Under the pieces are notes generated by a model that worked only from the letters and a program-made list of their open reading frames with translations, ran no database searches and had not been told where the DNA came from. The position numbers and the translations under genes were made by a program. This document shows positions 2,214-15,046 of a DNA stretch of 16,982 nt, one piece after another (the stretch's first letter is position 1; the number at the start of each line of letters is the position of its first letter). This DNA comes from Deltaproteobacteria bacterium (GTDB lineage Bacteria; DRYD01). The stretch covers positions 1-16,982 of the forward strand of contig JAPYWL010000026.1 in assembly GCA_028276365.1 (NCBI GenBank), in the 5' to 3' direction.

Positions 2214-2300
2214 TGGGGAAGGTGGGATTTGAACCCACACGGGGTTAAACCCCCATTGGATCCTGAGTCCAACGCGTCTACCAAGTTCCGCCACTTCCCC
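2214..2300 (-). tRNA. tRNA-Leu, anticodon CAG
   Basis: Read on the minus strand, this is a complete class II tRNA. The acceptor stem is GGGGAAG/CTTCCCC with discriminator A. The D-arm is GCGG...CGC, the anticodon stem TTGGA/TCCAA, and the 7-base loop CTCAGGA gives anticodon CAG. The long variable arm has a GGGG/CCCC stem, and the T-arm is GTGGG-TTCAAAT-CCCAC. The long variable arm and A73 fit leucine. No CCA is encoded. It sits between the epimerase and rsmH on the same strand, and the rsmH ATG follows after 17 bases. Confidence 0.96.
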
Positions 2301-12605: not shown

Positions 12606-12611
12606 TATAAT
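12606..12611 (+). promoter_or_regulatory. Probable -10 element of the RRM gene
   Basis: TATAAT is followed by an A-rich stretch. The expected transcription start is about 12618, exactly where the AAGGGGTATAGCC element begins. There is no recognisable -35 hexamer at 17 bases; the region is the 18-bp tandem repeat. The call rests on the hexamer and on its position relative to the inverted-repeat element and leader. Confidence 0.5.
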
Positions 12612-12617
12612 ATAAAA

Positions 12618-12630
12618 AAGGGGTATAGCC
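12618..12630 (+). repeat. 5' half of a 13-bp perfect inverted repeat flanking the RRM gene
   Basis: AAGGGGTATAGCC is the exact reverse complement of GGCTATACCCCTT at 13117-13129. This half falls at the predicted 5' end of the transcript and is not obviously sequestered in a local hairpin. It is GC-rich compared with its surroundings. Confidence 0.9.
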
Positions 12631-12745
12631 GATATTATTTGCCTAACAGGGGCAAAAAAAACATACCTGTTGCTCTAAAAGAGGCCAGTTGCTCTAATAG
12701 GTTATAGGAGCTAAAGGGAGCTCTTTGAGTTTAAGGAGGTAGTTT
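12631..12745 (+). promoter_or_regulatory. Structured 5' leader of the RRM gene
   Basis: This is a leader of about 115 bases, visibly richer in G and C than other spacers. Possible stems are AACAGG/CCTGTT (12645-12650 with 12666-12671, 15-base loop) and CTCT/AGAG (12673-12676 with 12680-12683). The third, AGGAGCT/AGCTCTT (12706-12712 with 12719-12725), has a G-T pair and a 6-base loop. GTTGCTCTAA is repeated at 12669-12678 and 12688-12697. The ribosome binding site AAGGAGGT (12733-12740) follows the last stem. It could be an autoregulatory or temperature-responsive leader; I do not recognise a known riboswitch class. Confidence 0.55.
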
Positions 12746-13090
12746 GTGACTAAATTGTTCGTAGGGAACCTAAGTTATCAATTAACAGAAGAAGAATTCA
12801 AAGATACTTTCCAACCTTATGGTAATATTAAAAGCATAAGATTATTAACTAATAAGGGATTTGGATTTGTAGAATATGAAACTTCAGAAGAAGCTCAAAA
12901 AGCTATAGAAAATCTTAATGGTAAAGAATTAAAGGGAAGACCAATGAGAGTAGAATTAGCTAAACCAAGAGAAGAAGGATTAAGGTCTTCTTCTAATAAC
13001 AAATTTAGAACAAGAGGATTTTCAAGAGGTTCTTCTTCTAAAAATACTCCTAATAGAAATTTTAGAAGAAATTTCTCTAAATCTGAATAA
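12746..13090 (+). CDS. Small RRM-domain RNA-binding protein with basic RG/Ser tail
   Basis: A 114-residue protein with one complete RNA recognition motif. RNP2 is LFVGNL (4-9), RNP1 is KGFGFVEY (37-44), and the second helix is SEEAQKAIENLNGKEL, followed by GRPMRVELAKP. The C-terminal 40 residues are basic, Ser/Asn-rich and contain RG-type motifs (FRTRGFSRGSS), like bacterial Rbp and plant glycine-rich proteins. Such proteins bind single-stranded RNA and are often cold- or stress-related. The start is GTG with AAGGAGGT 5 bases upstream. The gene forms its own unit with a structured leader, and its ends are joined by complementary sequences in the 5' and 3' untranslated regions. Confidence 0.95.
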   Translation: MTKLFVGNLSYQLTEEEFKDTFQPYGNIKSIRLLTNKGFGFVEYETSEEAQKAIENLNGKELKGRPMRVELAKPREEGLRSSSNNKFRTRGFSRGSSSKNTPNRNFRRNFSKSE

Positions 13091-13108
13091 ATATATTTAA
13101 TTAAATTA

Positions 13109-13142
13109 AAGATTTTGGCTATACCCCTTATTTAAAAATCTT
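13109..13142 (+). promoter_or_regulatory. 3'-UTR hairpin presenting the complement of the mRNA 5' end in its loop
   Basis: AAGATTTT (13109-13116) pairs perfectly over 8 bp with AAAATCTT (13135-13142). The 18-base loop (13117-13134) starts with GGCTATACCCCTT, which is the exact complement of 12618-12630. The hairpin begins 18 bases after the RRM stop codon. The sequence relationship is directly seen; that the two sites pair in RNA is inferred. Confidence 0.7.
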
Positions 13143-13327: not shown

Positions 13328-14149
13328 ATGAATAGAATAAATAACTATTTAAAAATAGTGTTACTTTTAATATTAATATCTATATCTGTTGTAAAATATT
13401 CTTATGCACAGAATTATTATGTTTATAATAATGTTGAGGATAAAAAGATGGAAATAAAAGTGGGGGCATGGAGTGCTAAGTTAACAGGTACTTTATTTGC
13501 TCCTTCTACTAATTTCACTACTGATTTAGCTGATGATTTAGGGTTTGGGAATACTAAAACGGGATTTTATGTAGATTTTAATTATAAATTATCTAATTTA
13601 AATACGGTTGGTTTTTCTTATTTTAATGTTGAGCATAAAGCTGTTAGAACTTTAACAAGAAATATAACTTTACCTGCTGAGCCCTTAGATGTTAATGTTA
13701 ATTCTGGTATTACTGTTTTTTCTAATATAAGAAATAGTGCTTTTGATTTGTTTTATAAAAGATATTTAAATACTGAACAAAATTATGATTTTTATGGTAT
13801 GATAGGTATAAGGTTTAATAATTTCAAAGCTGATTATTCTAGTAATACAACTCCATTGGCTTCATTTGAAGGTAACGTTCCTTCTTTATTTTTAGGATTA
13901 GGTGGAAAATTTAATATTGGTTCTAACTTAAGTGCTTTTTACGAAATAAGTGGCTTAAGTGTTTCTCTTAATTCTAGTTCTAAAAATAAGTTTTTCCAAT
14001 ATAATTTAGGTTTAGGTTATAGATTTACTGAAAATTGGAATTTACAAGTGGGTTATAGATATCTTTCTACTAAGTTTGAAGATGATTTTAATAGAAATGC
14101 AGATCTTAAATTACAAGGGCTTAATTTTGGAATAAATCTTAAATTTTAA
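13328..14149 (+). CDS. Outer-membrane beta-barrel protein, paralogue A
   Basis: A 273-residue secreted protein. It has a classical signal peptide: a basic start, hydrophobic core IVLLLILISISVV, and YSYA as the likely signal peptidase site near residue 27. The mature part shows alternating polar/aromatic strands and Gly-rich turns. It ends GINLKF, with the C-terminal Phe that BamA recognises. Conserved blocks shared with the next gene are VGAWSAKLTGT, DDLGFGNTKTGF, MIGIRFNNFKADY and LKLQGLNFGI. About 8-10 strands would fit the length. Function is unknown; it may be structural or a small porin. The ribosome binding site is strong (AAGGAGGT). The next paralogue begins 48 bases downstream, so the two are probably one operon. 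Confidence 0.87.
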   Translation: MNRINNYLKIVLLLILISISVVKYSYAQNYYVYNNVEDKKMEIKVGAWSAKLTGTLFAPSTNFTTDLADDLGFGNTKTGFYVDFNYKLSNLNTVGFSYFNVEHKAVRTLTRNITLPAEPLDVNVNSGITVFSNIRNSAFDLFYKRYLNTEQNYDFYGMIGIRFNNFKADYSSNTTPLASFEGNVPSLFLGLGGKFNIGSNLSAFYEISGLSVSLNSSSKNKFFQYNLGLGYRFTENWNLQVGYRYLSTKFEDDFNRNADLKLQGLNFGINLKF

Positions 14150-14197
14150 GGGTATTTAAGAAATAATAAAAAAAGCTAAAAAGGAGGTAATTCAAAA

Positions 14198-15046
14198 ATG
14201 AGTATTAATTTAAATGTAATAATAAGGAAAATTTATTTAAAGGCTTTAATGTTTGTTTTATGTTTTATAAGTATTATAAATTTTTCATATTCCTATAGTT
14301 TTACTGATGATAGTTATAGTTATAAAGGAATGGAATTCAAGGTTAAAGTTTGGGCTTCTAGATTAAGTGGCTCTACTACTGAATATACTACAGGAAATAG
14401 TTATGATTTAAAAGATGTATATGGATTTGGAGGTACTAAAACTTCTTTACAATTTGAATTAAGGAAAGAGATAAATAATAATTCGTTTGGTTATTTGGCT
14501 TACTTTGGGGATACTAGGAAATCAAATACTATTCTCACTTCTCCAGTTAGTTTTTATTTTAATCAAAATGGAACAGGAACTGTTAGATTAAACAGTGGAG
14601 ATAATTTAAATACTGTTATTAAAGTGAATTCTTTTGATATTGTTTATGGTTATTATATAGGTAGGAAATATGATAAAGGGTATGCTGCAGTTTTAGCGGG
14701 ACTTAGGTTTAATAATTTTGCTGTTGATTGGACCTACAGTGGAAGTAGAAATGGATCTAATTCTTATAGGATAAATGGTGCAAGTGGATTTTTGGGATTA
14801 GAAGGGAAGTATAATTTTAGTGAAAATTTAGCAGGATTTGCTAGAGTTGATGGAGGAGTTGTCGGTGGTGGAGGTAAAAGAGTTGGTATATTTGAATATG
14901 AATTAGGTGGTGATCTTAAATTAACAGAAAATCTAAACTTAGAATTAGGATTTAAATTTGCTGATGCTAGAGCAAGAGATGAATTAGGTAATAAACTATC
15001 ACTTAAATACCAAGGAATCAACGGAGGAATTAAGTTTAAATTTTAA
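14198..15046 (+). CDS. Outer-membrane beta-barrel protein, paralogue B
   Basis: A 282-residue paralogue of the preceding gene. The N-terminal signal peptide has core ALMFVLCFISIINF, with cleavage probably soon after FSYSYS, and the protein ends GGIKFKF with terminal Phe. Aligned blocks are VKVWASRLSGS, DVYGFGGTKTSL, LAGLRFNNFAVDW, SGFLGLEGKYNFSENLAGF and LKYQGINGGI. It is more Gly-rich than its partner (VVGGGGKRVG around residue 225). The ribosome binding site AAGGAGGT sits 10 bases before the ATG. Spacing and shared direction suggest co-expression with paralogue A. A minus-strand ORF inside it is a shadow. The exact family is not identified. Confidence 0.87.
   Translation: MSINLNVIIRKIYLKALMFVLCFISIINFSYSYSFTDDSYSYKGMEFKVKVWASRLSGSTTEYTTGNSYDLKDVYGFGGTKTSLQFELRKEINNNSFGYLAYFGDTRKSNTILTSPVSFYFNQNGTGTVRLNSGDNLNTVIKVNSFDIVYGYYIGRKYDKGYAAVLAGLRFNNFAVDWTYSGSRNGSNSYRINGASGFLGLEGKYNFSENLAGFARVDGGVVGGGGKRVGIFEYELGGDLKLTENLNLELGFKFADARARDELGNKLSLKYQGINGGIKFKF

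Follow-up and report, generated by a model that had tools for sequence, protein, structure and literature searches.

A long-range UTR helix predicted to close a small RRM mRNA in Candidatus Calescibacteriota

Complementary arms around the RRM gene

In a hot-spring bacterium, a gene for a small RRM protein lies between a 13-mer, AAGGGGTATAGCC (12618-12630), and its exact reverse complement (13117-13129), an observation of the earlier note that we checked in the sequence. The locus raises the question of whether the two copies pair within the mRNA and what such a closure would do for it. The stretch of DNA analyzed (hereafter the window; 16,982 nucleotides, 24% G+C) belongs to a 1.59 Mb MAG assembly (G000) of Candidatus Calescibacteriota, a candidate phylum of hot-spring bacteria; described related populations originate from Yellowstone springs at about 80 °C (PMC4791363). 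G000 and G001 constitute one genus (g1), and G002, G003, G004 and G005 a second one (g2). The elements of the RRM unit are the following:

12606..12611, forward strand: TATAAT, probable -10 box from its sequence, implying a transcript start near 12618
12618..12632, forward strand: 5' arm of the terminal helix, AAGGGGTATAGCCGA, from pairing and comparison across genomes
12640..12671, forward strand: leader element TGCCTAACAGGGGC...CCTGTT, probable H-type pseudoknot, from conservation
12641-12643 with 12651-12653: putative pseudoknot stem 1, GCC with GGC
12645-12650 with 12666-12671: putative pseudoknot stem 2, AACAGG (in the hairpin loop) with the downstream CCTGTT
12673..12683, forward strand: small CTCT/AGAG hairpin directly 3' of the pseudoknot, from comparison across genomes
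12733..12739, forward strand: Shine-Dalgarno sequence AAGGAGG, outside the terminal helix
12746..13090, forward strand: RRM protein of 114 aa, carrying one RRM and a basic tail rich in Ser/Arg (Pfam RRM_1, E 1e-24)
13115..13129, forward strand: 3' arm of the terminal helix, TTGGCTATACCCCTT, from pairing and comparison across genomes

Further 3' of the RRM gene, positions 13328-15046 encode two neighboring proteins that are close in length (273 and 282 aa), perhaps diverged duplicates, the first of which matches a beta-barrel outer-membrane family.

As RNA, the 13-mer helix gains one G-U and one A-U pair, reaching 15 pairs between 12618-12632 and 13115-13129. Under Markov models, the expected count of the 13-mer is 0.02-0.035 for the whole 1.59 Mb assembly and 3e-7 to 5e-7 for any one 3' UTR of 60 nt, far below the copies observed, which makes a chance origin of the pair as unlikely as had been supposed. 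Among the perfect 13-nt inverted pairs of the window lying less than 1 kb apart, the 12618/13117 pair has the highest G+C content (7). A copy search across the genome returned no scattered set, the three exact copies being both arms and one more within an unrelated ORF. On the sense strand of its ORF, this third copy (L001 1501-1513; G000:C71:10954-10966) reads as the 3'-arm sequence; pairing in trans with the 5' arm of the RRM mRNA is conceivable, as is a chance occurrence.

The earlier note also placed the second copy in the loop of an 8-bp hairpin (13109-13116/13135-13142) and proposed a kissing interaction or switch. The hairpin exists, but its significance did not hold: the window contains 63 8-bp inverted repeats of a similar kind (3.7 per kb), its folding z-score is -1.2, and it was absent when looked for at the RRM loci of the relatives. 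We consequently rejected it as part of the feature on grounds of chance level and lack of conservation, and the loop-based readings are not supported.

Maintenance of the pairing among relatives

The RRM gene was found in six genomes of two genera, with G003 and G005 nearly identical at the locus, and the protein was not found in G006, the remaining genome of the order (73% complete). In all five relatives carrying the gene, the leader opens with a run of G, the complement of which lies 10-38 nt past the stop codon, so that no relative keeps the gene without the complementarity. The arms (5'/3') of the relatives are:

G001: AGGGGGTATAGC/GCTATACCCCCT
G005: AAAAGGGGGTATGGA/TCCATACCCCCTTTT
G003: nearly as in G005, with one extra G
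G004: GGGGGGTATGGAAA/TTTCCATACCCCTT
G002: AAGGGGGCATGGAA/TTCCATGCCCCCTT

An ungapped alignment of both arms from the six genomes, G-U pairs included, showed standard pairs in 94% of the cells over 14 pairs, compared to 38-58% when the 3' strand was shifted by 1-3 columns. Five of the 14 pairs are altered in both partners, and 500 out of 500 shuffles gave a lower covariation score. The changes fall on the split between g1 and g2 and also within both genera, implying several events, though few. The compensatory changes that the earlier note proposed to look for are thus present, and they strongly support its suggestion of a 5'-3' closure of the mRNA, the transcript ends themselves being placed from sequence signals. 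From this comparative evidence, pairing of the RRM arms is well supported, with covariation speaking for its formation in the RNA.

Folding predicted the terminal helix as the closing structure of each RRM mRNA from 37 to 80 °C. The anchored consensus fold reached -55.6 kcal/mol, compared to -32.5 kcal/mol without the 5' arm, giving the helix a share of about 23 kcal/mol; its stability at the growth temperature is uncertain, as the folding program accounts poorly for the closing of a loop of about 500 nt.

Between the 5' arm and the Shine-Dalgarno sequence, the leader carries the element TGCCNAACAGGGGC...ACCTGTTGC, nearly invariant in the six genomes, which is a probable H-type pseudoknot whose first loop is a single base and whose last loop is A-rich. 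As its main stems hardly vary, covariation adds little for this fold, and both-sided change between the genera was limited to one outer pseudoknot pair and one pair of the following CTCT/AGAG hairpin (G-U in g2, U-A in g1). The motif occurs once per genome. A pattern scan over the genomes of 84,980 species found 24 stretches, of which only the five from Calescibacteriota precede an RRM gene, and a covariance search of 386 genomes added only weak matches at chance level. The curated Rfam covariance models identified only tRNAs above their gathering scores in the window, with no family for the feature. Two further observations concern this region. The leader of g1 contains an extra stretch without counterpart in g2 (window 12686-12732), which includes a repeated GTTGCTCT and a GAGCT/AGCTC hairpin. 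In addition, the start of the RRM coding sequence, AAATTGTTCGT (window 12752-12762), is identical in six of six genomes and includes Leu TTG and Phe TTC, codons chosen for these amino acids in just 8% and 11% of cases in a G000 sample; this identity may reflect a constraint at the RNA level.

A second gene with matching ends

In a screen for complementarity between 5' and 3' UTRs, the RRM gene came out on top both among 1405 genes of G002, which were screened blind, and among 139 genes of a G000 sample. Complementary UTR segments beyond chance, the mark of bacterial mRNAs with 5'/3'-UTR pairing in cis as a general kind, are present. Among RRM loci of other phyla (24 taken, 23 scored), none stood out for such complementarity.

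The third-ranked gene of the blind G002 screen encodes a 91-aa protein with a hydrophobic N-terminus followed by CPNCPDDGYLAKD repeats (CPNCPDD-repeat protein), for which no convincing Pfam family was found. Its homologues occur in the same six genomes as the RRM gene (L085 1740-2015 in G002:C1, and L175-L180, with the G000 copy at L180 1429-1662), and it lacks the leader element. Its arms (5'/3') are:

G002: GGGATGGAGGGGGA/TTCCCCTCTGTCCC, G-U pairs included
G004: GGAGCAAGGTGGTAAA/TTTACCACCTTGCTCC, 16 perfect pairs
G001: TGGGAGGGTTAGG/CCTAACCCTCCCA, 13 perfect pairs
G000: AGTGGGAGGGTTGGGTT/AACCTACCCCTCCCACT, one mismatch
G003 and G005: GGGTGTAGG/CCTACACCC and one additional short block; the helices are shorter here and contain an internal loop

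Despite belonging to one genus, G002, G004 and G005 have CPNCPDD arms that differ almost wholly from each other. When each of the twelve UTR pairs of both genes was confronted with foreign UTRs (800 3' and 800 5' UTRs), between 0 and 9 of each 800 reached its score. By a log-odds ranking the two genes stood at positions 1 and 6 of 1499 in G002 and headed the samples from G000 and G001; only the G002 ranking was blind, as both loci had been added on purpose to the other two samples. Genome-wide, no broad excess of such zipping was detected compared to UTRs swapped between genes, and few genes stand out; some of the remaining high-ranking genes in G002 (L145 1315-1842, L137 1511-2530 and L156 16609-17601 among them) have A+T-rich or mismatched pairings. 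As read from these alignments, end-pairing is a recurrent mRNA architecture of at least two unrelated small genes, and extends beyond the RRM mRNA. The proposal that the paired ends form an autoregulatory platform for the RRM protein is weakened by this finding, as the unrelated CPNCPDD gene has the same architecture.

The same arms bear on a feature acting at the DNA level, either inverted repeats bounding a small mobile unit, which the earlier note had mentioned, or paired sites for a regulator. The genes around the RRM unit do differ between the two genera; however, each genome has a single RRM unit in place of the multiple copies expected from a mobile one, the arms contain G-U pairs, and those of the CPNCPDD gene share almost no sequence between genomes, which implies no fixed protein site. 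Arm-like 10-mers elsewhere were also close to control counts, for which a regulon of such sites was rejected as well. We consider an explanation at the DNA level exceedingly improbable.

Pairing could alternatively serve for repression, with the 3' UTR reducing translation or triggering decay as in the icaR mRNA of Staphylococcus aureus, in which the 3' UTR motif UCCCCUG pairs with the 5' UTR, covers the Shine-Dalgarno sequence, blocks translation and recruits RNase III (PMC3868564). The RRM 3' arm is C-rich like that motif, and in g2 the CPNCPDD 5' arm is located near the Shine-Dalgarno sequence. Yet the RRM 5' arm starts 85-130 nt upstream of the start codon in six of six genomes, and in all of them the Shine-Dalgarno sequence stays free of the helix, as opposed to its occlusion in icaR; repression in this manner appears unlikely.

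Transcript ends and protection from decay

A TATAAT or TAAAAT box is found 6-8 nt upstream of the RRM G-run in G000, G001, G005 and G003, with no clear -10 box upstream of the arm in G002. In G000 and G001 a TATAAT precedes the arm by 4-8 nt in both genes, and TATAATACAG directly precedes the arm of the second one. The box at 12606-12611 is where the earlier note had located it, and a start of transcription at the arm would follow from it. In g2, the coding sequence preceding that of the RRM protein stops at the 5' arm or overlaps it, so that the arm may there be internal to a longer transcript through co-transcription.

At the other end of the RRM unit, the C-run of the 3' arm is followed in g2, after 2-4 nt, by the start of a gene for tRNA-Leu(CAG):

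L006 1886-1972, tRNA-Leu(CAG)
L007 1375-1462, tRNA-Leu(CAG)
L008 1880-1966, tRNA-Leu(CAG)
L009 1368-1454, tRNA-Leu(CAG)

From this arrangement, the RRM mRNA and tRNA-Leu of g2 are probably a single transcript split by RNase P, whose cleavage is expected to trim the mRNA back to the helix and make its closed end nearly blunt. In g1, tRNA-Leu(CAG) lies elsewhere (window 2214-2300) without an arm, indicating that the 3' arm belongs to the RRM gene and not to the tRNA, and no mark of a 3' end was seen near the RRM 3' arm in this genus. Taking the promoter-like boxes and the abutting tRNA together, we infer that both mRNA ends lie in or beside the duplex.

The arrangement in g2, with an upstream ORF stopping at the 5' arm and a tRNA directly past the 3' arm, would also suit a processing stem at which an RNase III-type cleavage frees the RRM mRNA from a transcript running from the upstream gene to tRNA-Leu, as the stems of rRNA precursors do. 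Against such a role, the TATAAT just upstream of the arm in G000 and G001 leaves nothing upstream to remove, 12-15 pairs are short for RNase III, and no tRNA was found in the 3' flanks of the CPNCPDD gene that were examined, making it rather unlikely. The 3' flank admits as well a long-range terminator, in which the 3' arm would pair with the nascent 5' arm and the following U-rich sequence would stop transcription: U-rich stretches follow the RRM C-run in six of six genomes, and no ordinary terminator was found 3' of the RRM gene in the window. However, the U-run of g2 is just 2-4 nt long and is followed at once by the tRNA, whose expression would be lost, and we regard a terminator as very unlikely.

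The reading that we favor, and hold to be somewhat probable, is that a conserved long-range UTR helix closes the RRM mRNA, and likewise the CPNCPDD mRNA, with the duplex protecting both ends. The helix between the start of the 5' UTR and the 3' UTR would make of the RRM mRNA a panhandle of about 460-530 nt, shielding its 5' end from 5'-end-dependent attack by RppH and enzymes of the RNase E/G type and its 3' end from exonucleases; mRNAs so protected would be long-lived templates for small proteins. The closed RRM mRNA would remain translatable, its ribosome-binding site being outside the helix. Calescibacteriota encode RNase Y and a homologue of RNase E/G just below the curated cut-off, and nothing was found above the cut-off for RNase J. 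The presence of this architecture in an unrelated gene favors a generic role such as protection over a switch specific for RRM, and by analogy with known systems protection from decay is the most likely function of the closure. A wider proposal, of which we are doubtful, is that of an mRNA class with ends zipped by gene-specific arms that diverge yet keep matching, with the 5' end set by transcription start and, in g2, the 3' end by RNase P, which would keep the templates of a few abundant small proteins closed and protected in a phylum of thermophiles.

Closure through both ends is a textbook property of eukaryotic mRNAs, and to our knowledge few cases of 5'-3' UTR pairing have been described in bacteria, icaR being the best known. 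The 5'/3'-UTR interaction of Bacillus subtilis hbs was reportedly described by Braun et al. in 2017. According to the passages on it in PMC7821165 and PMC8406224, a 14-nt pairing between both UTRs stabilizes the hbs mRNA against RNase Y, making it the nearest functional parallel, by analogy, to the long-range pairing of about the same length within one small mRNA seen here. It differs in phylum and gene, in that the arms of Calescibacteriota appear at the very ends and are kept by compensatory change across genera in two unrelated genes, and in that stabilization, established for hbs, is here suggested by likeness. The icaR pairing is, as a passage of PMC7821165 states, lacking in Staphylococcus epidermidis. 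The same source describes RNAIII of S. aureus, an RNA of about 500 nt bearing a small ORF whose 5' and 3' regions pair, as in the RRM mRNA; RNAIII is a trans-acting regulator, a role that the Calescibacteriota mRNAs do not suggest. Pairing of the Listeria hly 3' UTR with the prsA2 5' UTR protects, in the account given in PMC8406224, an mRNA from 5' exonuclease; it resembles the present case as UTR-UTR pairing at a 5' end, but involves two mRNAs and an enzyme of the RNase J type.

What sets Calescibacteriota apart is the compensatory upkeep of the pairing across two genera and in two unrelated genes, between sequences that share only their match. End-zipping thus looks like a selected mRNA architecture, and whether closed ends stabilize the mRNAs of bacteria, thermophiles in particular, becomes directly testable.
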